64,000 nt of DNA from Haloplanus natans DSM 17983 (GTDB lineage: Archaea > Halobacteriota > Halobacteria > Halobacteriales > Haloferacaceae). The notes under the pieces were generated by a model that saw only the letters and a program-made list of their open reading frames with translations, was not told where the DNA came from and did not search any database. Position numbers and translations under genes: made by a program. The stretch's first letter is position 1. Each line of letters starts with the position of its first letter. Below are positions 9,066-32,620 of the stretch, piece by piece. The DNA lies in assembly GCF_000427685.1 (NCBI RefSeq), contig NZ_KE386573.1:806001-870000 (forward strand). Reading direction: 5' to 3'.

Positions 9066-9512
9066 TTAGGCTGGTGTTGGCTCTCTGCCGACGAGTTCGA
9101 TGTCGAGGTGAATCCGCTCGTAGGGCAGGTACGGCCGCTTGCGCTGTCCGTCATCGACGACGAACAGCAGGCCGTAGTCCGCAAGCAGGGAGATGTCGTC
9201 GTGAACCGGCCGGTAATCACGGCCGAGCGCATCGGCCACTGCCGAAATGCTCTCGGCTGCCCCGTCGGTGTTCAGCAGCACCCGAAGGAGTTCAAGACGG
9301 CGGTCGGTCAGGATCTTCCGCAACTCCCCGACCGTCGCGAACGACACGACCGCCGGTGAGGAGTCCCCCTCGGCGACTGCGTCAACACGCTCGAGTGTGT
9401 CCTCACAAACGTCGTCGAACCCCTCGACAGTCACCCGGAGGACGGTCGGGTGTGGGCGCTCGCGGGGGTCGCGGTACTTGTCGGGCCAGCCGTCGTGATC
9501 GGTATCGGTCAT
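9066..9512 (-). CDS. tumA: TumA-type antitoxin / HVO_A0114 family wHTH DNA-binding protein
   Basis: A protein of 148 residues with a winged-helix core at about 60-135 (VGELRKILTDRRLELLRVLL...SISAVADALGRDYRPVHDDISLLADYGLL). This is the pattern of the HVO_A0114 group that pairs with TumE toxins. Its ATG overlaps the toxin stop by four bases (ATGA), so the pair is translationally coupled with the toxin first. As in other type II systems it probably neutralises the toxin and represses the shared promoter. The pairing is established for the family; the regulation here is inferred from the palindrome upstream of the toxin. Confidence 0.75.
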   Translation of the reverse strand: MTDTDHDGWPDKYRDPRERPHPTVLRVTVEGFDDVCEDTLERVDAVAEGDSSPAVVSFATVGELRKILTDRRLELLRVLLNTDGAAESISAVADALGRDYRPVHDDISLLADYGLLFVVDDGQRKRPYLPYERIHLDIELVGREPTPA

Positions 9513-9811
9513 GGGTTGGAATGCTCAGTGTCGGTTAGTTCGGCGATCTCTTGAAAGAAGAGGACGACGTGCGACACGAGGTTCTGAAACGGGATCTCGG
9601 TATCCTCGCCGAACCGAACGTGGCGATGGTGCCAGCCGAGATCCTCGTCGGCGTGTGCATTGTCGTAGGGCAGGAACTCGCCCTCCTCCGGGTGGTAGTA
9701 CTGGAACCGGTAGAACCAACCGCCGGGGTACTCCTCGTCGCGGATCGCGAACACCTCCACGCGGCCACCTGGGACGGCGCGGTTGAGTTCGATCGGGTGG
9801 TTCTCCGGCAT
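9509..9811 (-). CDS. tumE: TumE family toxin (DUF6516)
   Basis: A protein of 100 residues of the TumE/DUF6516 type: a start rich in charged beta strands (EVFAIRDEEYPGGWFYRFQYYHPEEG), then DNAH and HHRHVRFGED, and a C-terminal helix (LVSHVVLFFQEIAEL). It is the toxin half of the TumE/TumA module known from archaea, overlapping the antitoxin gene by four bases. A promoter with a palindrome lies just upstream. Family members are thought to block growth through translation or RNA; the mechanism cannot be read from the sequence. Confidence 0.75.
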   Translation of the reverse strand: MPENHPIELNRAVPGGRVEVFAIRDEEYPGGWFYRFQYYHPEEGEFLPYDNAHADEDLGWHHRHVRFGEDTEIPFQNLVSHVVLFFQEIAELTDTEHSNP

Positions 9812-10320: not shown

Positions 10321-10688
10321 TCGTGTGTGCATTCGTTCGATCGCCCGAACGACGGTCCGTCAGGCTCGTTACGGCCTTCCATGGCTGGCGGATGATCTCC
10401 GAGAGCCGGCGTGCTTTGGAAATGTCTGTATTGCTCGGACGTTGCTGAAACTCGATGATTACTACACCCCGCCAGTCGGTGGCTCTGGAGCGGATAATAA
10501 ACGCAGCTGAGTCGACAACACCGACCGGAGGAGCACCGGCGGTTTGGCACCGTTTCGCGATGGCTTAAAATAAATCCCCAAAATGAAACCTGAGCTATAG
10601 TGGTAATCTCGAAAATCCCACCGCTCGGGGTTCCTGCGCCTTCGGGCCCAAGAGGGTATCGAGCCAGTCGTCCGTTCTGATCGTCCAG

Positions 10689-11060
10689 TTATTCCGTATT
10701 CCCCGCACGCGGAAGGCCCACTTCGATCACACCGCCGCTCGAGAGTTGAATCGTGAGCCCCTCATAAGTGAACTCGACGAGCCGGTCGTTACGGGATGGT
10801 CCGGACGGACGGTGTCTCACGATTCGGTCGAGAGCGTCCGGGTCGACGACGTGGTCCAGTGGTCGGAGAGCAGTCACCGACTGTCCGGTTATTTTTGCGA
10901 CCACCGAAATAACGGCTACACTCGGGGACACGTCGCCACCGTCGAACTCCGCAACGTACGTTTCCTCATCTGTATCGAACGTTAGCGACCGAACGGGGGG
11001 ATCGGCGTCGATTCCGCCCAGTCCGAAAGAATCTCGATCATGCTGGGGCGAATCGGACAT
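10689..11060 (-). CDS. HalOD1 output-domain protein
   Basis: A protein of 123 residues with the HalOD1 fold along most of it: SPSVAVISVVAKITGQSVTALRPLDHVVDPDALDRIV... (V)EFTYEGLTIQLSSGGVIEV. HalOD1 is a haloarchaea-specific output domain used in one- and two-component signalling; its biochemical role is unknown. The gene diverges from the transducer at 11260, and its promoter carries the same bipartite motif (11084-11106). It is therefore probably co-regulated with the transducer and the KaiC/LOV operon. Confidence 0.75.
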   Translation of the reverse strand: MSDSPQHDRDSFGLGGIDADPPVRSLTFDTDEETYVAEFDGGDVSPSVAVISVVAKITGQSVTALRPLDHVVDPDALDRIVRHRPSGPSRNDRLVEFTYEGLTIQLSSGGVIEVGLPRAGNTE

Positions 11061-11083: not shown

Positions 11084-11106
11084 CATAACTCACCCCTCTA
11101 GATAAC
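11084..11106 (-). promoter_or_regulatory. Shared bipartite promoter motif (HalOD1 gene)
   Basis: Reads GTTATCTAGA-GGGGTG-AGTTATG on the minus strand, with AGTTAT 24 bases before the ATG. The same arrangement stands before the transducer and the KaiC gene. Confidence 0.65.
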
Positions 11107-11212
11107 GGGACACATCCGGAACCGTACTTCCGACGGCGTCCCTCAGGAATGGTTCGAACAGCGAAGCGATCGAGCGAGACGGCCGCCGATTCTCAGCTGC
11201 GATACTCATACT

Positions 11213-11235
11213 GTTATCTAGAATGGCCAGTTATT
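11213..11235 (+). promoter_or_regulatory. Shared bipartite promoter motif (transducer gene)
   Basis: GTTATCTAGA-ATGGCC-AGTTATT, with AGTTAT about 25-31 bases before the ATG at 11260. The decamer and hexamer and the six-base spacer are identical in layout to the copies at 11084-11106 and 16242-16264. Confidence 0.65.
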
Positions 11236-11259
11236 GGGTTTGCCACGGGAGAGTAGCTC

Positions 11260-13482
11260 ATGTTAGAAAAGGTGAAACTCGATCGGTTCGACTTGCGGCC
11301 GAAACTCATCCTGGCGTTCGTGCTCGTGGCGTTGCTGGTCGCCGTGACCGGTGCGATCGGGTACACCTCGGTTGCCACCGTCGATGAAGAGGCACACATC
11401 ATTGCAGAAGATGGGCTGAAGATGGACGCGTCCGCAGAAATGATCGTTGCCATCGAACAGCAGCAGGGTGCGATACAGGCTGCCCAACTCGGTGAGGAAA
11501 ACGCACAGCAACAATTCGAAGAGGCCACGCAACATTTCAACGAACAGGCACAGCACCTCGAAGAGGCGGAGTTGAGCCCACAGCAAGAAGAACAGTTCTC
11601 GACCCTCAAATCCCAACACGAGGAGTACAACACGCTCGGAACCGAATTTTTCGACGCGAGAGCCGCGGGTGAGACTGAACTCGCTGCACAGAAAGCCGCC
11701 GAAATGGACACCCTCCGTCTCCAAATGGAAGAGCACGCACACGCCATCGAGCAATCGGCACAAGCAGACCTCGAATCTCAAGTCGAAATCGCCGATAGCA
11801 CGACACAGTCCGCACAACTGGAGATTCTCGGGCTTACCATCGGTGCGTTCGTCCTCGCGATCGCCATCGGCCTGTTCGTGGCCGGACGGATCATCCCGCC
11901 GATCACGAGGTTGGAAGAGACTGCACAGGCTGTCAGTGACGGCAACCTCGACAACGACCTCGACGACCACGTCGAAGACGACGAACTCGGTCGGATGATC
12001 GAGGCGTTCACCGAGATGCAGTCGAATCTTCGAGGCGTATTCTCGCAGATCGGAACCGCCAGCCGTGGTTTGCGAGAGGGCGACCTCGGGTGGGAGTTCG
12101 AGTCCAGCTATCCCGGTCGGTACGGCGAAACCGTCGCTGATCTCGAAGCGGGTGCCGACGAACTCGCGGAGAGTTTCGACGAGATCCGGGGTGTGAGCGA
12201 CGATCTCCAGCAGGGAGTTCTGGACGGGGACGTCGATGCGGACCGCCCCGGACAGTACGGCGAAGTGCTCACCGACCTCGCGACCGGGACGACCCAGTTG
12301 TCGGAAAGCTTCGCCCAAATCTCGGCCGTGAGCCGGGGTCTGAACTCCGGGCAGCTGGATCAGGACATCGACACGGATTTCCCGGGAACGTTTGGATCGA
12401 CACTGGGTGACCTCGAGAACGGGATCGAGCAGTTGGATACGAGCGTCGCACGCGTCCAGTCCATCGCGGACGATGTCGCGACATCGAGCGAGAGCGTGGC
12501 GAGCAGTTCGGAAGAGATCGAACAGGCCAGCAGGCAGGTCGCGGAGTCCGTCGAGGAGATTTCACGCGGTGCGGACACACAGAGCGAGAACCTCGACGAG
12601 GTGGCCGGCGAGATGAACGACATGTCGGCGACCGTCGAGGAAATCGCTTCCTCGGCCGAGGAGGTGGCTACAACCGCCAGTACGGCTGTCGAGCGCGGTG
12701 AGACTGGCCGACAGTACGCCTCGGAGGCGACCGAAGAGATCCAGTCGATCGAAACGCGGGCCGACCAAGCGGCCACACAAGTCGAGGCGCTCGACGAGAA
12801 GATGGACCGGATCGGCGAGGTCGTCGAGATGATCGCCGACATCGCCGAACAGACCAACATGCTGGCATTGAACGCCTCGATCGAGGCCGCGAGGGCTGGA
12901 GAAGCGGGCGAGGGGTTCGGCGTCGTGGCAAACGAGATAAAGTCCTTAGCAGGGGAGGCAGCCGAAGCGACTACGGACATCGAACAGCGCATCGAAGAGG
13001 TCCAGGCGACGACGGACGATACCGTCGAGGGCATACAACAGATGAGCGACCGCGTCGAACGCGGCTCCGACACGATCGAAGACGCCATCGAGATGTTCGA
13101 CGAAATCGCCAACACCGTCCAGGAAGCCGAAAGCGGTATCCGGGAAATCAGCGACGCCACCGACGACCAGGCGGCCTCGTCGGAAGAAGTGGTGTCGATG
13201 GTCGACCAGGTCTCCAGCGTCAGCCAGCAGACGGCGGCCGAGGCGAGCAACGTCTCCGCCGCGACCGAAGAGCAGACCGCCTCACTGTCCGAGGCCTCGG
13301 AGAACGTGCAACAGCTGTCCGCGCTCGCTGAGGAACTACACGACCAAGTGTCGGATTTCGACACCGGATCGGGTGTCAATGCAGGAGCCGATGTGACAGC
13401 GGGATCGGCGGCCGCAGCCGACGGCGGACACCACCTCTCCGAGACCGATGCTCGAACGCCGGAGTACGATGGAGAAACGTGA
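11260..13482 (+). CDS. Methyl-accepting chemotaxis transducer (Htr type) with poly-HAMP region
   Basis: A protein of 740 residues. TM1 is at about 13-37, a helical extracellular sensor domain at about 38-185 and TM2 at about 188-208. A canonical HAMP follows ([20 protein letters not shown]). After that come three HAMP-like units of about 50 residues sharing L-x-x-G-x-L...PGxxGxxLxDLxxG. The MCP signalling hairpin carries the highly conserved tip ([19 protein letters not shown]). It signals to CheA/CheW at the cell membrane. Glu/Gln-rich methylation helices flank the tip. No che gene is in the window. The stimulus is unknown. Confidence 0.9.
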
Positions 13483-13610
13483 GCCGATGAGGACACGTCA
13501 CGTTCCCGAGTCCACGCGCGTGGAAGGGCGGTACGCTATCGGTATCGGGACCGTCTCCGAAATTGTCGGCTGTTCGGAAGAGTGGATCCGGAACCGATCT
13601 CGACCGAAGC

Positions 13611-16205
13611 ATGAGTGAGGCGAAGGCCCTGATCGAGACTGAGGAGGTGATACGGGTTCTCCACGTGGACGACCAATCCGATTTCGCCGATCTCACTGCG
13701 ACGTTCCTCGAGCGAGCGGACGACCGGTTCACCGTCGAGACGGCGAGTAGCGCCGACGGCGGGTTGGAGCGAATCGGCGATCGGCCGCCCGACTGCATCG
13801 TCTCGGATTACAATATGCCCGGCATGAACGGTTTCGAGTTCTTGGAAGCTGTCCGAGAGCGATATCCCGACCTTCCGTTCATCCTGTTTACTGGCAAGGG
13901 CAGCGAGGCCATCGCCAGCGAGGCCATCTCCGCTGGCGTTACCGACTACCTCCGGAAGGGTTCCGGTACCGAACAGTACGACCTCTTGGCCAACCGGATT
14001 CGGAACGCCGTCCGGGCACGACGCGAGGCACAGCGGGCCGACAGACAGCAACAACTGATGCGACTGACGGAGTTCGTCGGCGACACTGGTGGGTGGGAAC
14101 TGGATCGAGGGAGTGATACTGTCCTGCTGACGGCCGGCACCCGGCAAGCCATCGGCCGCCCTGACCGGGCCGAAATCCCTCTGGAGGAGGCGATTGCACT
14201 GTTCCACCCGGGCGACCGCGAAGACGTTCGCCAGACACTCACCGAGGCCTTCGAAGCGGGTGCGGAACTGGAACGGAGGTGGCGACTGCGGCCACGTGAC
14301 GGCGACGAGCGTCTCATAGACATGACGATCACTCCGGTCGTCGAATCGGGGGGAACGGTAACGAAGCTCCGTGGTGCTGGCCACGACGTCACCGACCGCG
14401 AGGAGCGGCGGCGCGAACTCGAAACGTACGAGACGATCATCGAGGCGCTGACCGACGCGGTGTACGTGCTCGACGAGGAGGGACGATTCACCTACGTCAA
14501 CGACGAGTTCGTCGAGTTGGTTGGCTACGACCGGGAGACGATTCTCGGAAACACGCCGTCGCTCGTCAAGGACGAGGCGGCCGTCGAACGGGGTGATCGC
14601 AACTTGCGACGGTTGTTATCGAGCGACGGCCCTGAGACGATTTCCTTCGAGGTGACACTGCAACCGCGCGAGGGTGAGCCGATCGTCTGCACGGACCACA
14701 TGGGCGTGCTTCCCTACGAGGGTGACCGGTTCGACGGATCAGTTGGCACGCTCCGGGATGTTACCGCGGCCAGGGAGCGCGAGCGAACGCTGGAACGGCA
14801 AAACGACCTGTTTACAAAAGCCCAAAACATTGCCGATGTCGGGGCTTGGAGTTACGACGTGCGGACCGACGAGGCGTTTTTGACGGACAAAGCGTACGCG
14901 ATTCACGGCCTCTCGCCGGATGACGAACTGACTCCCGAGAGAAGCCTCGATTTCTATCACCCCGAGGATCGACCGGCAATCCGCGACGCATTCGACCGAG
15001 CAGTAGAGACGGGCGAATCCTACGACCTCGAACTTCGACTGATCGACACAGCGGACGACCTCCGCTGGGTGCGCACCCGTGGCGATGCCGAACCCGAAGA
15101 CGGCAACGTTGTTTGCGTTCGCGGCACCCTGCAAGATATTACCGAGCGCAAACGACGGGAGCGGGCGCTCGAAGATCGGACTGAGAAGCTGGAAACGTTG
15201 ACCTCCGAACTCGAGGAACAGTACCGGCATCTGTTCGAGGAAGCACCGCTCATGGCGGTCGTTACGCGTGCCGAGGAGGGGGAGCCGATAATCGAAGACT
15301 GTAACGACCTGTTCGTCGATACCCTAGGCTACGAGAAGTCGGAACTCGTCGGAGCGAAACTCGAACGGTTCTACACCGCCGAGTCCCGACGTAAACTGCT
15401 GGACGAAGGTGGCTACGAGCGTGCACTGGGCGACGAGTTCGTCCGCGAGAACAGATCCCTGGTGACCGCTGGCGGGGAGACAGTCGAGACGCTCTTCCGG
15501 GCGGTTCCCCGGAAAAGGTCACCGGAGGGATCCCGCGGGACGATCGCGTTCTACGTCAACGTCACCGAGCGTAAACGATTGGAACGGGAACGGGACCGTC
15601 TGGAGGAGTTCACGAGCATCGTCAGCCACGACCTCCGGAATCCGCTCACAGTGGCAGATGGACACATCGAACTCGCACGAGAAGAGTGCGACAGCGACCA
15701 TCTGGCTCGGGTAGCCGACGCGATCGATCGGAGCCAAGCACTCATCGACGACCTGCTGACGCTGGCGCGTGAGGGGAGAGAAGTGACCGGAAGCGAACCT
15801 GTGGAACTTACCGACGTGGTCAAGCGCAGTTGGGAAACCGTCGATACGGAGCACGCAACGCTCGAAGCCAACGCGACGCAGGTCGTCAAAGCCCACAGGA
15901 GTCGGCTCCAGCAACTATTCGAGAACCTCTATCGGAACGCGGTTGAGCACGGTGGTGACGGGGTGACCGTTCACGTCGGCGATCTGGACGGCGGCTTCTA
16001 CGTGGCGGATACGGGGTCCGGGATTCCCGAAAGCGACCGGGACGAGATTTTCGAGGCCGGCTATTCGACCGCAGACCACGGAACCGGATTTGGCCTGCGG
16101 ATCGTAGAGCAAATGGTCGAGGCGCACGGCTGGGACATCCGCGTCGTCGACGGCGAACGGCGTGGCGCCCGCTTCGAGATTACCGGCGTCGAGACCACAC
16201 ACTGA
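13611..16205 (+). CDS. Response regulator-PAS-histidine kinase hybrid
   Basis: A protein of 864 residues from the ATG at 13611. An N-terminal receiver domain (VLHVDDQSDF...IVSDYNMPGMNGFEFL, phospho-acceptor Asp about 66, LRKG lysine) is followed by four PAS/PAC units ending in the usual D(I/V)T(E/D)R linkers. Then come HisKA with SHDLRNPL (His about 672) and HATPase_c with NLYRNAVEHG, DTGSGIP and GTGFGLRIV. There are no membrane helices, so it is a cytosolic multi-input kinase. The receiver at the N-terminus is the common haloarchaeal order. The gap to the transducer stop is 128 bases; no shared motif is seen there, so it may be read through. Confidence 0.9.
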   Translation: MSEAKALIETEEVIRVLHVDDQSDFADLTATFLERADDRFTVETASSADGGLERIGDRPPDCIVSDYNMPGMNGFEFLEAVRERYPDLPFILFTGKGSEAIASEAISAGVTDYLRKGSGTEQYDLLANRIRNAVRARREAQRADRQQQLMRLTEFVGDTGGWELDRGSDTVLLTAGTRQAIGRPDRAEIPLEEAIALFHPGDREDVRQTLTEAFEAGAELERRWRLRPRDGDERLIDMTITPVVESGGTVTKLRGAGHDVTDREERRRELETYETIIEALTDAVYVLDEEGRFTYVNDEFVELVGYDRETILGNTPSLVKDEAAVERGDRNLRRLLSSDGPETISFEVTLQPREGEPIVCTDHMGVLPYEGDRFDGSVGTLRDVTAARERERTLERQNDLFTKAQNIADVGAWSYDVRTDEAFLTDKAYAIHGLSPDDELTPERSLDFYHPEDRPAIRDAFDRAVETGESYDLELRLIDTADDLRWVRTRGDAEPEDGNVVCVRGTLQDITERKRRERALEDRTEKLETLTSELEEQYRHLFEEAPLMAVVTRAEEGEPIIEDCNDLFVDTLGYEKSELVGAKLERFYTAESRRKLLDEGGYERALGDEFVRENRSLVTAGGETVETLFRAVPRKRSPEGSRGTIAFYVNVTERKRLERERDRLEEFTSIVSHDLRNPLTVADGHIELAREECDSDHLARVADAIDRSQALIDDLLTLAREGREVTGSEPVELTDVVKRSWETVDTEHATLEANATQVVKAHRSRLQQLFENLYRNAVEHGGDGVTVHVGDLDGGFYVADTGSGIPESDRDEIFEAGYSTADHGTGFGLRIVEQMVEAHGWDIRVVDGERRGARFEITGVETTH

Positions 16206-16241
16206 GCGAAACCGCCGTCGACGGACTGCGTCCGGCATCTC

Positions 16242-16264
16242 GTTATCTAGACCGTCGAGTTATT
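16242..16264 (+). promoter_or_regulatory. Shared bipartite promoter motif (KaiC/LOV operon)
   Basis: GTTATCTAGA-CCGTCG-AGTTATT, 35 bases before the ATG at 16299. Third instance of the motif found before the HalOD1 and transducer genes. Confidence 0.65.
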
Positions 16265-16298: not shown

Positions 16299-17816
16299 AT
16301 GTCCGACGATTCTGGCGGTACGGCGGCGGAGGAAATAGACCTGATCGCGTCCGGCATCCCCGAGTTGGACGAGTTACTCAACGGTGGGTACGTTCGCGGT
16401 CGGACGTATCTCGTGCAGGGCGTCTCCGGGACGGGAAAGTCACTGCTCGGCCAGCACTTTCTTCGAGCAGGACTCGATAGAGACGAGACGGTCGTCTACA
16501 TCCACGGCGAAGAATCGAGACACGATATTCTCGTCAACGCCGCACGGTTGGGAATCGACATCCAGGATGCCGAATTTCTCGATATCGGCCCCGGGACGGA
16601 CTTCTTCGCCGAGGACAAGTCGTACAACTTGGTCGAGGCGACCGAAGTCGAATCCGAGCGGTTCACACAGGACATCAAGCGGGTGATCGAGGACGTCGAC
16701 CCGAGCCGGATTCTTATCGATCCGATCACACAGCTCCAGTACGTGGAACGGGACGAGTACCAGTACCGGAAGCGACTGCAATCACTCATCCGATTTCTCC
16801 GGGACCGACAGGTGACGACAGTCGCAACGCGAACGCACGACAGGAGCCGTGCACCGCAGACCACACACGACGATTTCGAGTCGCTCAGCGACGGTGTCAT
16901 CGATCTGTATCTCGACGAGCGCGAGCGTCGGATAGCGGTCCCGAAACACCGCGGACTCGGCCAGGTGGACGGTACCCACGGGCTCGAAATCCGCGAGCAC
17001 GGGATCGAAGTCTACCCACAGACCATCCCGGCCCACGACGACCGAACGTTCGACCCGGAACTCATCCCCACCGGACACGAGTCCCTCGACGGCCTCCTCG
17101 GAGGCGGAATCGAACGCGGAACCGTCTCGTTCGTTAGCGGCCCGACCGGCATCGGAAAATCGACTACCGGGGCACAGACACTCTCTGGCATCGTCGAAGA
17201 CGGGGGGACGGCACTCGGATACTTTTTCGAGGAGTCAATCGATCAGTTCGTCCATCGCTCGGAGGCCCTCGGACTCCCGATTTCGGAGATGCGGGCGCAG
17301 GGATCACTGGGGCTGATAGAGACCGAACCGCTCGTTCGTTCGGCCGAGGAGTTCGATCAACACGTCCTCAATCAGGTCGACGAGCACGCGCCGGACGCGG
17401 TGTTCATCGACGGGCTCTCGGGCTATCAGACCTCGCTCCAAGGCGACGATCAACGGCTCGTTCGACGTCTCCACGGCCTTACGCGGGTACTCAAAAATCG
17501 CGGTATCGCAGTCATCATCACGGACGAAGCGGATCGACTCACCGGCATCCCGGAAGCCACGAGTACGAACACCAGCTACATCGCCGACAACATCGTGTTT
17601 CTCACGTACGTGGAAGTCGACGGCGAGTTGGACCGTGCGATCGGAGTCGTCAAGAAGCGACTCGGGGACTTCGACAGCCGGTTTCACCGATTCTCCATCG
17701 AATCCGGCGAGGGACTCGTTATCCAAGGGCCGTTCGACAACGTACGAGGAATCATGGGGGGGAGTTCGGCGCGTCGCGTTCCGGACGGATCCAACCAGAC
17801 GACTCATCGATCATGA
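16299..17816 (+). CDS. Double-domain KaiC-type ATPase (RecA superfamily)
   Basis: A protein of 505 residues with two KaiC domains. The first has Walker A GVSGTGKS (about 42) and Walker B ILIDPI (about 138). The second has Walker A GPTGIGKST (about 282) and Walker B AVFIDGL (about 367). Glutamates that activate water in KaiC (VYIHGEE, YFFEES) are visible in both halves. The haloarchaeal homologues are signalling ATPases rather than proven clock parts. The stop codon overlaps the start of the LOV kinase (ATGA), which makes co-translation and functional coupling with a light-sensor kinase very likely. Confidence 0.88.
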   Translation: MSDDSGGTAAEEIDLIASGIPELDELLNGGYVRGRTYLVQGVSGTGKSLLGQHFLRAGLDRDETVVYIHGEESRHDILVNAARLGIDIQDAEFLDIGPGTDFFAEDKSYNLVEATEVESERFTQDIKRVIEDVDPSRILIDPITQLQYVERDEYQYRKRLQSLIRFLRDRQVTTVATRTHDRSRAPQTTHDDFESLSDGVIDLYLDERERRIAVPKHRGLGQVDGTHGLEIREHGIEVYPQTIPAHDDRTFDPELIPTGHESLDGLLGGGIERGTVSFVSGPTGIGKSTTGAQTLSGIVEDGGTALGYFFEESIDQFVHRSEALGLPISEMRAQGSLGLIETEPLVRSAEEFDQHVLNQVDEHAPDAVFIDGLSGYQTSLQGDDQRLVRRLHGLTRVLKNRGIAVIITDEADRLTGIPEATSTNTSYIADNIVFLTYVEVDGELDRAIGVVKKRLGDFDSRFHRFSIESGEGLVIQGPFDNVRGIMGGSSARRVPDGSNQTTHRS

Positions 17817-20032
17817 TCGGCCGGTCGAGCCACGAAGCGAGTGCGCGACACACGATACAGCTCTTCGTACACGGAGACAACGACCGGGACGCCCTCGAAG
17901 AGTCCCTCCGCGAACGGTACGACGTTATCGACGGCGAGACGCTCCACCCCGCCGATTGTTACGTCGTCGATGAGCCGATGGTGCCAACGTATCGGGACGC
18001 GTTGCGAGAACACAAAACGAAGGTTCACCCGACGTTCACCCCAGTGCTGTTGATTCAGAAAGAAGGGTCGCGGGGAACTGTTCCACTGCCGTCGGAGCAG
18101 AACGGCGACGGCCCACCGCTGATCGACGAAGTGGTGCCAGCACCCGTCGACCGGAAGACCCTGTTTCGTCGAGTGGGGAATCTGTTGGCCCGGCGAGAGC
18201 AGTCGGTGGAGTTGTCCGAACGTTACGAAGACGTTCAGACCCGATTTCAGCGGCTGTTCGAGTCGACGAACGACGCTCTCTTCGTGGTTGCCCCGGGCGG
18301 CGACGGGATCAGCGAGTGTAATCCGGCTGCGTGTGACCTCGTGGGATACTCACGCGACGAATTACTCTCTCTCTCCCCGACTGAGACGATCTACGCCGAC
18401 GACTGCGAGCGGTTCCAAGCCTTTCTTCGAGACGTACGAGAGTCGGGTCAGGGGTCGACCGACGACCTCGCGTGTCTGACGAAGGCGGGCAACGAGCGAC
18501 AGTTGGAGGTGTCGGCTGCGACACTCGAGGAGTCCGGCGAGTCCTCGATAATCCTCTCCGCACGCGACGTGACAGAGCGGAAGGCGTACGCACGGGAGCT
18601 CGAACTGAAGTCCCGAGCGATGGACGAAGCCCCCGTCGGGATCACAATTACCGATCCCGACAGGGAGGACAACCCGATGATCTACGTGAACGAGGGGTTC
18701 GAGGCGCTAACGGGATACTCCGCGGAGGCGGCGGTCGGTCGAAACTGTCGATTTCTTCAGGGGGAAGCGACACGGGAGCAGCCCGTCGCAGAAATGCGGA
18801 AGGCGATTGATAGAGCCGAGCCGGTTTCCGTGGAACTCCGCAACTACCGCAAGGACGGGAGCCAGTTCTGGGATCGTGTCAGTATCGCGCCGGTGAGAGA
18901 CCAGGCCGGAAACGTGACGAACTACGTCGGATTTCAGGAGGATATCACCGAACGCAAAGAGCGCGAGATGGACTTACAGCTGTTCAAAAAAGCCGTCGAG
19001 AACGCGGGACAGTCGGTGTTCATCACCGACAGCGACGGGGTTATCCAGTACGTGAACCCGAAATTCGAATCCCGATCCGGCTATACTCGTGAGGAAGCGG
19101 TCGGTCGAACGCCCCGTATTCTCAAGTCGGGCAAACAGGGCGAGGAGTTCTACGACCGGATGTGGCAGACGATTCTCGCAGGCGACCAGTGGGATGCCCA
19201 CCTCGTCAATCGCCGCAAAAACGGGGAGCTGTACCACGTCGACCAGACGATCTCGCCCATAGCGAACGACGAGGAGATCACGCATTTCGTCACGATCGAA
19301 GCTGACGTGACGAACCGCCGGTTGCGCGAACAGCAACTCGAGGTCCTCAATCGTGTGTTGCGTCACAACCTCCGGAACGCTGTGAACGTAATCGAAGGCC
19401 GCGCAGCAATGCTCCGGAAGGCGCTGGACGACGACGAACTCCAGACACACGTGAGCGCGATCGAAGATCGATCGACTGCGCTGTCGAGCCTGGCTGACAA
19501 AACCGCAACGGTGCGCTCCCTGTTCGACACCGAAGCAGCTACTCAGACGGCCTGCGACGTGACTGGACTGCTGACTGAGGTCGTCGACGAACTTTCCGAC
19601 GAGCATCCCGACGCGATGTTCACGGTCAGTACGCCCAATTCTCTCCACGCACGGGCGGACAGTCGGTTGAAAACCGCACTGTCGGAGCTCATCGAAAACG
19701 CAATCGTCCACAACGACAAGTCCACGCCGGAGGTCACGGTTACGACCAGATCGCCAAGCGAAGATCGAACCGGCGAGTGGATAGAACTCGTCGTCGCCGA
19801 TAACGGACCCGGAATCCCGAATCACGAACAGGAAACGATCGAAAGAGCAGAGGAAACACCCCTGCAACACGGTACCGGAATCGGACTGTGGATCGTCTAC
19901 TGGACGATTTCGTTGTACGGAGGTGAGATCTCGATCGAGGAAAACGCACCGCGTGGGACGCGCCTCGTACTGAGTCTCCCACAGGAGTCGGTCGACTCCT
20001 CGCCCCGGATCGTCCCCGCTGATACTCACTGA
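17813..20032 (+). CDS. LOV-PAS histidine kinase (predicted blue-light sensor)
   Basis: A protein of 739 residues. Order: receiver-like domain lacking a clear phospho-acceptor (about 14-125), PAS (140-260), LOV (265-385), PAS (390-510), a dimerisation helix with RHNLRN (His about 518), and HATPase_c (ENAIVHN, DNGPGIP, GTGIGLWIV). The LOV domain has the flavin-binding signature GRNCRFLQG with the photo-reactive Cys at about 312. It also has the later NYRKDGSQFWDRVSIAPV and NYVGFQEDIT stretches. In LOV proteins blue light forms a flavin-cysteine bond that switches kinase output. The gene overlaps the KaiC gene by four bases and precedes another kinase by four bases. Confidence 0.88.
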   Translation: MIGRSSHEASARHTIQLFVHGDNDRDALEESLRERYDVIDGETLHPADCYVVDEPMVPTYRDALREHKTKVHPTFTPVLLIQKEGSRGTVPLPSEQNGDGPPLIDEVVPAPVDRKTLFRRVGNLLARREQSVELSERYEDVQTRFQRLFESTNDALFVVAPGGDGISECNPAACDLVGYSRDELLSLSPTETIYADDCERFQAFLRDVRESGQGSTDDLACLTKAGNERQLEVSAATLEESGESSIILSARDVTERKAYARELELKSRAMDEAPVGITITDPDREDNPMIYVNEGFEALTGYSAEAAVGRNCRFLQGEATREQPVAEMRKAIDRAEPVSVELRNYRKDGSQFWDRVSIAPVRDQAGNVTNYVGFQEDITERKEREMDLQLFKKAVENAGQSVFITDSDGVIQYVNPKFESRSGYTREEAVGRTPRILKSGKQGEEFYDRMWQTILAGDQWDAHLVNRRKNGELYHVDQTISPIANDEEITHFVTIEADVTNRRLREQQLEVLNRVLRHNLRNAVNVIEGRAAMLRKALDDDELQTHVSAIEDRSTALSSLADKTATVRSLFDTEAATQTACDVTGLLTEVVDELSDEHPDAMFTVSTPNSLHARADSRLKTALSELIENAIVHNDKSTPEVTVTTRSPSEDRTGEWIELVVADNGPGIPNHEQETIERAEETPLQHGTGIGLWIVYWTISLYGGEISIEENAPRGTRLVLSLPQESVDSSPRIVPADTH

Positions 20033-20036
20033 GCCA

Positions 20037-21458
20037 ATGACGGAACGAAGGACCTCGAAAACGGAGAGCGAGAAACGAACCGACCGGTATCGGGCGCTCG
20101 TTGAAGCGTCGCACGACATCACCACCATCATCGACACGGACGGAACGATGACGTACGTGAGCCCCGCGGTTACACGGGTTCTTGGCTACGACTCCGAGGA
20201 ATTAGTCGGGGACACTGGATACGAGTACGTCCATCCCGACGACCGGGAGCGAAACGAAGACGCGGTTGAAGCCGTGCTGTCGGCCCCGGACGAATCCCAG
20301 ACCGTCGAAGTCAGATTCGAACACGCCGACGGGTCGTGGTGCTGGATCGAAGCCACGATGCGGAATCGACTCGACGACGACGCCATCGACGGGATTTTAC
20401 TCAACAGCCGTGAGATTGCCGAACGAAAAGGACGTGAACGCGAACTCCACGAACTCGCCGGAGAGTACGAAGCACTCCTGAACAACGTAGAGGACGCGAT
20501 TTTCTTCGTTGAGGTTGACGCTTCGGACACCGACATCACGTTCGAGTTCGAGCGCCTCAGTCCAGCATACGAGCGACAAACCGGACTCACGACCGAAGAA
20601 GTCCGGGGACAGACGCCACAAGAGGTGTTCGGGGAGCAAGAGGGAGCGGAACTCGAAGCGAACTACCACCGGTGCGTTAAGATCGGTGAGCCGATTTCGT
20701 ACCAGGAAGAACTCCGGATTGACGAAGGGGCACGCATCTGGCAGACGAACCTCGCGCCGGTCACCACCGACGGTGAAATCACCCGTCTCGTGGGAATTAC
20801 CCGGAACGTAACCGCCCGCGTCGAACGGGAACGCCAACTCCGTCGTCAAACGGAGCGTCTCGACGAGTTTGCGAGTGTCATCTCCCACGACCTTCGCAAT
20901 CCGCTCAACGTCGCACAGGGTCGCGCAACGGTCCTCGATGAACAAGTGGAAAGCGAACACCTTGCTCCACTCCGACAATCACTCGACTGGATGGAGGCGA
21001 TCGTCACGGACACGTTGACGCTCGCCCGGCAGGGCGAGACGATAGACGAAACGGAGTCGGTCAGTCTGACCGATCTCGTCGGGAAGTGCTGGGGGACGAT
21101 AGACGCAGACGCGGCGACCCTCGAGATAACTGATAAGATGACCTTCCAAGGCGATCGCGACCGATTACGGCACGTGTTCGAGAATCTGTTCCGAAACGCT
21201 ATCGAACACGGTGGCACGGACGTGACCGTTCGTGTCGGACGTGTCGATGAGGACACTATCTACGTCGAAGACGATGGGTCCGGGATCCCCGCAGATCGGC
21301 GCGAGGAGATTTTCGAACCGGGCCATTCCTCGACGAGTGGCGGCACCGGATTCGGACTAACCATCGTGAAGCGGATCGTAGAAGCTCACGGGTGGACAGT
21401 GTCTGTGACAGACGGGACTGAGGGCGGGGCGCGGTTCGAACTCGTGATGTCACAGTAG
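20037..21458 (+). CDS. PAS-PAS histidine kinase
   Basis: A protein of 473 residues. PAS domains lie at about 20-130 and 140-265. HisKA follows with VISHDLRNPLNV (His about 283), then HATPase_c with NLFRNAIEHG, DDGSGIP and GTGFGLTIV. It is cytosolic. It starts four bases after the LOV kinase stop, so it is the third gene of the KaiC-LOV operon and could form heterodimers or a phosphorelay with that kinase. Signal unknown. Confidence 0.88.
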   Translation: MTERRTSKTESEKRTDRYRALVEASHDITTIIDTDGTMTYVSPAVTRVLGYDSEELVGDTGYEYVHPDDRERNEDAVEAVLSAPDESQTVEVRFEHADGSWCWIEATMRNRLDDDAIDGILLNSREIAERKGRERELHELAGEYEALLNNVEDAIFFVEVDASDTDITFEFERLSPAYERQTGLTTEEVRGQTPQEVFGEQEGAELEANYHRCVKIGEPISYQEELRIDEGARIWQTNLAPVTTDGEITRLVGITRNVTARVERERQLRRQTERLDEFASVISHDLRNPLNVAQGRATVLDEQVESEHLAPLRQSLDWMEAIVTDTLTLARQGETIDETESVSLTDLVGKCWGTIDADAATLEITDKMTFQGDRDRLRHVFENLFRNAIEHGGTDVTVRVGRVDEDTIYVEDDGSGIPADRREEIFEPGHSSTSGGTGFGLTIVKRIVEAHGWTVSVTDGTEGGARFELVMSQ

Positions 21459-29683: not shown

Positions 29684-30172
29684 ATCCAGACATACTTCCA
29701 CAGGACGCAAAACGCTTCGGGAGCAGGTCCGCAGCAGGTATTGTCGTCGAGCAATACACAGACTACTGAACAGTTGGTTCGCTGGCTCCAGCGTGAAAGA
29801 AATCAAGGCTACCGCGCGAACCCTCCCTCTCTATTCAGCACGCTACTCTATCAAATTTTGAGGGTTTCGACAGAGGCAGATAGTACTATTGGCAGACGGC
29901 CGCATTGTACTGTTCACGGACGCGTCCGTCGAAGGATTCCGAGTTAGTTCATGCGGAGGTGGGAAGATATCGACCCGTCCGGTCGCTTCCTCCGGTGCTG
30001 GTCACTGGCACGCGTTGTTATAAGGAGTTCGTAAGCACGATTCCGTGCCGAAATCGAGCGTTTCGGTACGGAATGCTGACGGATACTGGATCGCAGGGAC
30101 CGGCGCGAGCGTCCCGAACCACTGTAATCAGCAACGCGTTATTTGTATCTGGGTGAAAGAACTCGACATGTA
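29684..30172. other. Gap between hicB and the Bat-like gene
   Basis: About 490 bases without a supportable gene. It holds the hicB promoter side, a TGAGGGTTTCGACAGAGGC sequence near 29867 and the inverted repeat at 30040-30074. Base composition is less GC-rich than the neighbours. Confidence 0.4.
30040..30074. promoter_or_regulatory. Inverted repeat upstream of the Bat-like regulator
   Basis: ATTCCGTGCCGAAA-N7-TTTCGGTACGGAAT, 13 of 14 pairs matching, about 100 bases before the ATG at 30173. The size and near-perfect arms fit an operator for a dimeric regulator or an RNA hairpin. Confidence 0.45.
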
Positions 30173-32620
30173 ATGGACGAACAGGATCGGCAGGAGAACG
30201 GTGGAGGGAGCCGGCCGAATCGCGCCGACTCCGTCGAAGCCGATCCCGGTGTGTCCCGCGACGTTTCCGAGTCGGACGCACGCACGCCGGACCGAGACGA
30301 CACAGCGGACGAGAATCCCGTGTTCGGAGGGGCGGCCGAGAAAAAATCCCAGGGGTGGACGAATGCGTTCGACGCGCTCGAACGGGCGAGTGAACTCTTC
30401 GCGGCCCTGGATAAGGATATCGACGATAGTGTTCGGACGTACGTCTCGGAACTGCCACAGTGGTTCCGGGACTCGCAAGCGATCGAGGCCAAGATTCGGG
30501 TGGGAGACGACGTGTTCGAAACCGATGGGTTCCACTCAACTTCCGACGCCCTGACAGCGAAGGCCCATACACACATCGGAACTGCCGTCTCGATGACAGT
30601 CGTCTCCACGGACCGGCAACCGGGCACGGACCGGGAGGCATGGTCCCCGAGCGAGCGCGAACTGGCCGAGACGACCATCTCACTCATCACATCCGCAGTC
30701 GATCGATGGGAGATAGACAGTCTGAAGCGCGTGTCGGACGGCGTTGCCGTGCTTGATGGCGACCTCACGTATAGATACGTGAATCAGCAGGCCGAGCAGC
30801 TCCTCGGACGGGACAACGAGGAACTGCGTGGTGAGTACGTCTGGGACGTCTTTCCCGAAGCGGCTGACACCATTGCTGAAGAGAAAATCCGGACGGCTCT
30901 CGACACACAGTCATCGGCGTCCTTCGAGCGATACAACGCCCAGAAGGAACAGTGGATCGAAGCTAGCGTCCACCCAAGCGACGATGGCGTCATCATCGTC
31001 TTCACCGAAATCACCGACTCGAAGGTTACCGAACGAAAACTGGATCACGTCTTGGAAACGGCGCCCGTCGGCATCGTCCTCCTGACCCCCGAGGGAGAGA
31101 TTACTCGCGCAAACGCCCGTGCAGAAGCGTTGCTTGGCCTGTCCAGAAGCAGGATGGACGGCGTGGCGTACGATCACCCGGGCTGGGATATCTGGGACGA
31201 AGCGGGGAATCCGATTCCACGCGAAAACCACCCGGTCGCGCATGTCCGCAGAACCGGCGAGGCTATCCAGGGGTTCACCCACGGAATCACACTTTCGGAC
31301 GGCTCCGAACGCTGGCTATCGAGCAACGTTGCTCCCGTCGAGGGTGAAGACGGATCGATCGAACAAATCATCGTCGCACTGGAAGACGTGACCGTCCCCA
31401 AACGGCTCGAACAACTCACCGAGACGTTCCAGCCGGTCAGCGAACTACTCAATAGCGCAACTGCTGGCGAGGAGATCGAACGACCCATCTGTGAGTTACT
31501 GACGGACACGCGCGAATACCAGTACGCACGGATTACCGAGTACACCCCGGAAACGGAACTGACCGAATCGGATCTCGAGGAGGGATCGGGGGCTGTCGCT
31601 GCCAACGAGTCCGTAACTCGTCCGATACAATCGCGGACTGAGGTCGCTCCGGCAGTGGTCGCCGTTGAAACGGCCGAGATACAGGCGGTTCGGAGGAATC
31701 AGTCGGACTCGCGGTTCGAGCGATGGCGAGCATACACACTGGAACAGGGGTTCCAGGGTGGAGCTATCGTTCCGCTCGTGCACAGAGGCCGCGTCTACGG
31801 GCTGCTCGTCTTGTATACGGACCGTGGAGATGCGTTCCGTGATCGCGAGCGGACACTCCTCTCGACGTTCGGTGAGAGGATTGGCCAAGTGCTTCACTCA
31901 CTTGCGACGGAGCGCATTCTCCACGCCGACGAAGTGGCCGAGCTTACGTTCGAGAGTACCGACTCGGCGTCGTTTTTCGTCTCCGCTTCTGAACAACTGG
32001 AGTGTACGATCGATATCAGGGACACGATTCCGGCCTCGGATGAGACACTCGTCCACTACGCGTCCATCCAGGGTGCTTCGTTGGATGCCTTCAGGAACTT
32101 CACGGAGAGTACGGACAGGGTAGCCCAGTTGCGGCAGATCCGACAGACTGAGGATCAGCCCGGCGGGGACGTCGAAATCGGGCTGTGCCGACAGTCCTTG
32201 GCACAGACACTCGTAGCAGAGGGCGCAGTCGTCACGACGGATACGGTAACCGACGGTCGGGCAGAGGTTGTCTGCGAAGTACCACTCGGTGACGATATTG
32301 GTTCGCTTGTCACACGCGTGCAGGAGTCGTTCCCGGACACGACGTTGGTCTCAAAACACGAACACACTCCCGCCGCGAAGTCGCATGCACACGCAATCGG
32401 TCAGATACTCGGAGATACCTTCGAAGCCGAACTCACGGACCGTCAACAACAGATCCTGCGAGCCGCGATGTACGCTGGGTATTTCGAGTCACCCCGAGAA
32501 AGTACGGCCACCGAAATCGCTGACGCACTCTCGCTGACTCAATCCACCTTCTCGTATCATCTGCGAAACGCCCAGCAAACACTTTTCGAGCAACTTTTCG
32601 ACCGAATACAGCAGCAGTGA
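30173..32620 (+). CDS. Bat-like PAS/GAF regulator with HTH_10 domain
   Basis: A protein of 815 residues from the ATG at 30173. Order: N-terminal region with no clear domain, two PAS units (about 185-300 and 300-420), a GAF domain (about 430-590) and the bacterio-opsin-activator extension (about 595-750). The C-terminal HTH_10 is LTDRQQQILRAAMYAGYFESPRESTATEIADALSLTQSTFSYHLRNAQQTLFEQLF. The family activates transcription in response to redox, light or small ligands, with Bat of Halobacterium as model. The target genes are not evident here. A strong inverted repeat lies upstream (30040-30074). Confidence 0.88.
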   Translation: MDEQDRQENGGGSRPNRADSVEADPGVSRDVSESDARTPDRDDTADENPVFGGAAEKKSQGWTNAFDALERASELFAALDKDIDDSVRTYVSELPQWFRDSQAIEAKIRVGDDVFETDGFHSTSDALTAKAHTHIGTAVSMTVVSTDRQPGTDREAWSPSERELAETTISLITSAVDRWEIDSLKRVSDGVAVLDGDLTYRYVNQQAEQLLGRDNEELRGEYVWDVFPEAADTIAEEKIRTALDTQSSASFERYNAQKEQWIEASVHPSDDGVIIVFTEITDSKVTERKLDHVLETAPVGIVLLTPEGEITRANARAEALLGLSRSRMDGVAYDHPGWDIWDEAGNPIPRENHPVAHVRRTGEAIQGFTHGITLSDGSERWLSSNVAPVEGEDGSIEQIIVALEDVTVPKRLEQLTETFQPVSELLNSATAGEEIERPICELLTDTREYQYARITEYTPETELTESDLEEGSGAVAANESVTRPIQSRTEVAPAVVAVETAEIQAVRRNQSDSRFERWRAYTLEQGFQGGAIVPLVHRGRVYGLLVLYTDRGDAFRDRERTLLSTFGERIGQVLHSLATERILHADEVAELTFESTDSASFFVSASEQLECTIDIRDTIPASDETLVHYASIQGASLDAFRNFTESTDRVAQLRQIRQTEDQPGGDVEIGLCRQSLAQTLVAEGAVVTTDTVTDGRAEVVCEVPLGDDIGSLVTRVQESFPDTTLVSKHEHTPAAKSHAHAIGQILGDTFEAELTDRQQQILRAAMYAGYFESPRESTATEIADALSLTQSTFSYHLRNAQQTLFEQLFDRIQQQ

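Follow-up and report, generated by a model that had tools for sequence, protein, structure and literature searches.

In light and under low oxygen, the Bat protein of Halobacterium salinarum activates bop via an upstream activator sequence; in this purple membrane regulon the gene encoding the PAS-GAF-BAT-HTH_10 regulator is linked to its targets, and several promoters share the activator sequence, which lies 5' of a non-consensus TATA box (PMC1447603, PMC3184054). The Bat homologs of the NarO/DmsR type of Haloferax have no PAS or GAF domains, and their HTH_10 genes are located inside clusters whose promoters repeat one motif (PMC11218638). At the basal level, the haloarchaeal TATA box reads TTWT and most mRNAs are leaderless (PMC4983044).

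Haloarchaea encode many Bat-type HTH_10 regulators per genome, very few of which have a known binding site. Here, a candidate site, GTTATCTAGA (the decamer), is assigned to one such regulator purely by comparison; a deletion that arose naturally and a joint change of recognition helix and site serve as internal tests. The locus lies in Haloplanus natans DSM 17983, in a stretch of 64,000 nucleotides (the window), and shares with the purple membrane regulon the domain composition of the regulator, the linkage to its targets and the position of a common putative activator site upstream of non-consensus TATA boxes. It differs in what is controlled, taxis transducers and a KaiC/LOV operon instead of opsin and retinal genes. 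The bop site itself consists of a CTAG core with ACC...GG flanks. With the NarO/DmsR clusters the locus has in common an HTH_10 gene among promoters that repeat one motif, while its regulator, unlike theirs, carries PAS and GAF domains (PMC11218638). The decamer is unrelated to the Haloferax denitrification motif CGAAYATDKTYG, which occurs in 82 promoter regions versus three sites here, and the factor binding CGAAYATDKTYG is not established either (PMC11218638). As in haloarchaeal basal promoters, a TATA box precedes the start codons of the transducer and HalOD1 genes by about 26 nt (PMC4983044), whereas the BRE consensus CGAAA is absent and the 6-base spacer is variable. A literature search for the motif or for a cassette of this kind retrieved no description, and the locus is a candidate for a transferable regulon in which a KaiC/LOV module is linked with taxis transducers.

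The promoter element and its distribution

The window holds exactly three copies of the motif GTTATCTAGA-N6-AGTTAT, each with 0 mismatches (11085-11106, minus strand; 11213-11234 and 16242-16263, plus strand), at the places where the earlier note had described it, and 0.05 matches to the full motif at up to three mismatches are expected in a shuffled window. The minus-strand copy, with the decamer at 11097..11106 (starting at -46 from the start codon) and AGTTAT at 11085..11090, precedes the gene of a single-domain HalOD1 protein of 123 aa (10689..11060, minus). The second, with the decamer at 11213..11222 (plus, at -47) and AGTTAT at 11229..11234, precedes a 4HB_MCP-HAMP-MCP chemotaxis transducer of 740 aa (11260..13482, plus), which is followed in the same unit by a REC-PAS-HisKA-HATPase kinase (13611..16205, plus). 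The third, with the decamer at 16242..16251 (plus, at -57) and AGTTAT at 16258..16263, precedes an operon for a two-domain KaiC-type ATPase of 505 aa (16299..17816, plus), a PAS/LOV-HATPase kinase in whose translation the LOV signature NCRFLQG can be read (17813..20032, plus) and, as the final gene, a PAS-HisKA-HATPase kinase (20037..21458, plus).

Pattern searches covering all 3.80 Mb (8 contigs) of the genome placed the full motif, with as many as three mismatches allowed, at these three sites, and no copy away from the cassette promoters was detected. The bare decamer is likewise present in three copies genome-wide, all of them in the window at the cassette promoters, and the 33 further sites with one mismatch correspond to background (41 for the reversed control). 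The extended consensus TNNNGTTATCTAGAN8YTAT gave three sites at 0 mismatches, none at one or two mismatches in the 3.80 Mb and 16 at three mismatches (control, 29). The element is real, restricted to this locus and located at promoters. Beyond this genome, a scan of 85,000 species genomes for the exact motif returned 30 stretches, mainly from unrelated bacteria and without meaning, the sole relevant one being in Haloplanus LUM.53. When two mismatches were allowed within the order, matches appeared in 62 of 293 genomes and were set aside as mostly background, since reversed controls were similar. Decamers followed by TTAT at other spacings (G371, G246, G279, G379, G142 and G059) were also rejected, with no cassette gene downstream where examined. 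In three genomes of another family (L075, L076 and L077), GTTATCTAGA is conserved together with an ATTTAT that stands behind a longer spacer, in a stretch with no long open frames downstream.

The same three promoters were located in relatives and aligned, yielding 38 sites from 14 loci; at least 14 loci in two families of haloarchaea have them, both on plasmids and on chromosomes. The decamer shows 0 or 1 mismatch in 37 of the 38 sites, several transducer and HemAT sites being off by one base; in G218, a diverged copy with two mismatches sits at the aligned position. A T located four bases 5' of the decamer is invariant in all 38 sites. The letters of the 6-base spacer vary freely, the distance from the decamer to YTAT is constant, and in nearly all sites the second half comes down to (x)(x)(C/T)TAT, the full AGTTAT being specific to this genome. 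Measured without assuming a TATA box, the decamer starts at -46 to -48 in the MCP, HemAT and HalOD1 promoters and at -56/-57 in those of KaiC. As some of the site searches in relatives demanded the TATA letters, the decamer search was rerun without that demand.

Because its position in relatives reads (x)(x)(C/T)TAT at a constant distance, AGTTAT is a TATA box instead of a conserved second half-site. Thus, of the bipartite motif proposed in the earlier note, the decamer half holds as near-invariant across relatives, and the AGTTAT half degenerates to YTAT. The specific element is only the decamer together with the T four nucleotides upstream, in the place of an upstream activator sequence, and its fixed distance to the TATA box fits a factor in contact with TBP/TFB. 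The xxYTAT box ends 25-27 nt 5' of the start codon in the transducer and HemAT/HalOD1 promoters, which agrees with leaderless promoters, where about 25-30 nt separate TTWT from the start codon. In the KaiC promoters it ends 35-36 nt 5' of the start codon, so that a leader of about 10 nt is predicted. In a few loci these distances refer to the aligned start, another in-frame start having been chosen by the script.

A further block, GATACTCAT (11201..11209, plus, in the window), was found only in transducer promoters, immediately 5' of the decamer; it is invariant in the aligned ones, with one substitution in the diverged G253 locus. The HemAT promoters of several plasmid copies carry GAGTATC, the reverse complement of GATACTC, at the place of GATACTCAT.

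A mobile cassette and its rearrangements

In its general form, the cassette comprises genes for a PAS-histidine kinase (HK), a LOV/PAS-HK, KaiC, a REC-PAS-HK, CheW and the MCP transducer, and, divergent from the latter, HemAT (a globin-coupled transducer), a DICT protein and a PAS-PAS-GAF-BAT-HTH_10 regulator. The complete cassette was found on plasmids of Halorientalis marina, Haloarcula pelagica, Haloarcula sp. GH36, Haloplanus sp. HW8-1 and Haloarcula halophila. The HW8-1 plasmid (L099 / L124, 200,002 bp) carries it twice, at approximately 34-50 kb and 134-147 kb, and a third, diverged copy is located on the chromosome of this strain.

In the window, CheW is absent between the transducer and the REC kinase, and the regulator gene (30173..32620, plus, 815 aa) lies away from the remaining cassette genes, since the block from 10491 rightwards is inverted. 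Window positions 10491 and 30015 map to the adjacent positions 18842 and 18851 of the corresponding region in Haloplanus G478, on opposite strands, and represent the breakpoints of the inversion that parted the regulator from the cassette relative to G478 and G475. A toxin-antitoxin-like pair, consisting of a TumE-type protein and an HVO_A0114-type HTH protein, is located at 9066-9811.

In G475 and G478 the gene order is regulator, HalOD1, sites and transducer, with regulator and HalOD1 pointing away from the transducer, which shows that HalOD1 occupies the place of HemAT plus DICT in other loci. The HalOD1 protein (10689-11060) bears the first ~16 residues of the relatives' HemAT transducer, retaining its N-terminus MSDSPQ..RD.FG.GG (MSDSPQHDRDSFGLGG vs MSDSPQYGRDDFGRGG). 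It looks as if a new gene body had been joined to an old promoter and start region, and HalOD1 is best described as a recent substitute at a promoter that drives a globin-coupled transducer in most relatives. The inclusion of HalOD1 in the regulon, put forward in the earlier note, is supported, with the qualification that the protein replaces the HemAT of most relatives.

The Bat-type regulator and the decamer

By domain criteria, the protein encoded at 30173..32620 is assigned to the Bat/HTH_10 family, with two PAS domains, a GAF domain (E 3e-11), a BAT domain between GAF and HTH (PF15915, E 1e-30) and a C-terminal HTH_10 (PF04967, residues 754-806, E 6e-17); the genome contains many other HTH_10-like candidates for the decamer-binding factor (72 at first look), which counts against singling out this one. 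The gene is preceded by a consensus-like TATA promoter, GTTATTTGTA (30138..30147, plus), an GTTATTTATA-like TATA at about -35. Control of the regulator gene by the decamer was ruled out for its own promoter, as the best matches there have 2-4 mismatches and fall mostly at the TATA position; the regulator is therefore probably made first and independently. In relatives, its gene may receive read-through from the HemAT-DICT unit.

Matches to the regulator at E<=1e-150 occur in 6 of 392 genomes of the order, and the five genomes with GTTATCTAGA-N8-TTAT are all among these six (hypergeometric 8e-11; this and the other counts assume independent genomes, whereas the cassette passes as one unit by descent and by transfer). 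In the sixth, G218, the transducer is preceded by ACTATCTAGA-GTTAAA-GATTAT. As the cassette travels as one block, co-presence is weak by itself, and four further checks were made; independence from whole-cassette transfer rests on G253, G479, G218, G260 and G477.

No gene other than the regulator is shared by all loci with the decamer, reduced loci being those of G479 (HemAT-DICT-regulator and a PAS kinase, with MCP and KaiC absent), G253 (the regulator and only a transducer, 43% identical) and G218 (regulator and transducer only). Orthologs of the KaiC operon were detected in 13 genomes of the order (E<=1e-190): the exact decamer precedes all four that are accompanied by the regulator and none of the nine without it (Fisher 0.0014), and in the latter a TTAT-type box usually remains. 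Among the transducer orthologs of the family, the decamer was observed in 4/4 with the regulator and in 0/13 without.

In G260, which belongs to the same genus, KaiC is 92-93% identical, the regulator is reduced to codons 783-815 (the last 33) beside KaiC and the REC kinase to codons 805-862, and the decamer is destroyed in a promoter whose TATA region aligns well. The deletion scar, at 9091-9453 of L138, fuses the ends of regulator and REC kinase beside an intact KaiC operon and constitutes a natural knock-out.

Conservation of the recognition helix TQSTFSYHLRNAQQTLF extends to G253, in which the BAT domain is 42% identical. In G477 the helix reads TQTTVSQHLRNAQRKLF and the promoter carries GATATCCAGC instead of the decamer; in G479 two helix residues are changed (F to V, N to K) with the decamer unchanged. 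The co-variation of helix and site in G477, a single case, supports the regulator as the candidate decamer-binding factor.

Proposed activation and the competing readings

Considered together, the comparisons make it probable that the three units form a private regulon of the Bat-family activator encoded by the cassette itself, with the decamer as its upstream activator sequence. The earlier proposal of a dedicated activator tying transducer, HalOD1 and KaiC/LOV genes into one regulon gains support from the genome-wide exclusivity of the element, its footprints in two families and its co-presence with a Bat-type HTH_10 regulator. We infer both that this regulator binds the decamer and that it activates rather than represses, the latter from the position of the site only. 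According to the proposed mechanism, the regulator, expressed from a promoter of its own that has a better TATA box and lacks the decamer, would bind GTTATCTAGA at about -47 to -38 via HTH_10, immediately upstream of the TFB/TBP sites, and would recruit or stabilise TBP/TFB on a weak TATA box (xxYTAT). Three units would then be switched on together: the transducer and its downstream kinase, the HemAT unit (here HalOD1), and the operon of KaiC, LOV-kinase and PAS-kinase. Through its PAS and GAF domains, the regulator would respond to a signal such as light, redox state or a ligand, and light or oxygen is the likely one in view of the neighbouring oxygen-sensing-type transducer and LOV kinase.

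The same protein could instead act as a repressor that blocks TFB/TBP loading from the decamer until a signal arrives, a reading compatible with a decamer that abuts the BRE/TATA region and with the absence of the site from the regulator's own promoter, which has a better TATA box. This is improbable, given that the decamer sits entirely 5' of the TATA box at a constant distance, where archaeal activators such as Bat at bop are usually placed, that the characterised members of the family, Bat, NarO and DmsR, are activators (PMC11218638), and that TATA boxes as weak as xxYTAT suit a need for help over a need for blocking.

Another host regulator, encoded outside the cassette, could bind the decamer, the link with Bat reflecting shared inheritance of a mobile cassette, and linkage alone could indeed keep site and Bat gene together in a block that moves on plasmids. 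Several observations make such a regulator a quite improbable candidate: minimal loci retain just the Bat gene besides the target, the decamer is lost in a congeneric genome whose Bat gene was naturally deleted, the recognition helix is conserved and the genome holds no further decamer site. An alternative TFB (or TBP/TFB pair) reading decamer plus AGTTAT as an unusual extended promoter, the other option raised in the earlier note, would agree with the fixed spacing to the TATA box, with the several TFBs of haloarchaea and with the TFIIB-type genes close to the cassette in two Haloarcula plasmids (L098, L100). It is highly improbable and unsupported here, as among the five plasmids covered such genes are annotated near the cassette in these two and in none of the others, a general-use TFB would be expected at more than three promoters, and loci that lack the Bat gene also lack the decamer.

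Returning to the cassette-encoded activator, it may tentatively be proposed that the cassette is a horizontally mobile, self-regulating behaviour module in which a light/redox-gated Bat activator co-induces the oxygen transducer HemAT, the membrane transducer and the KaiC/LOV-kinase operon via a private site, absent from the rest of the host genome. If this were true, one transfer would give a cell a switchable photo/aerotaxis programme including a KaiC-type timer.

A different upstream arrangement was observed in transducer orthologs (62-66%) from genomic regions without the regulator (L146-L153), where TTATCAC, an ATATCTAGG-like sequence and GTAACTACTTAT follow one another within about 60 nt 5' of the start, and this is possibly the site of a related factor.
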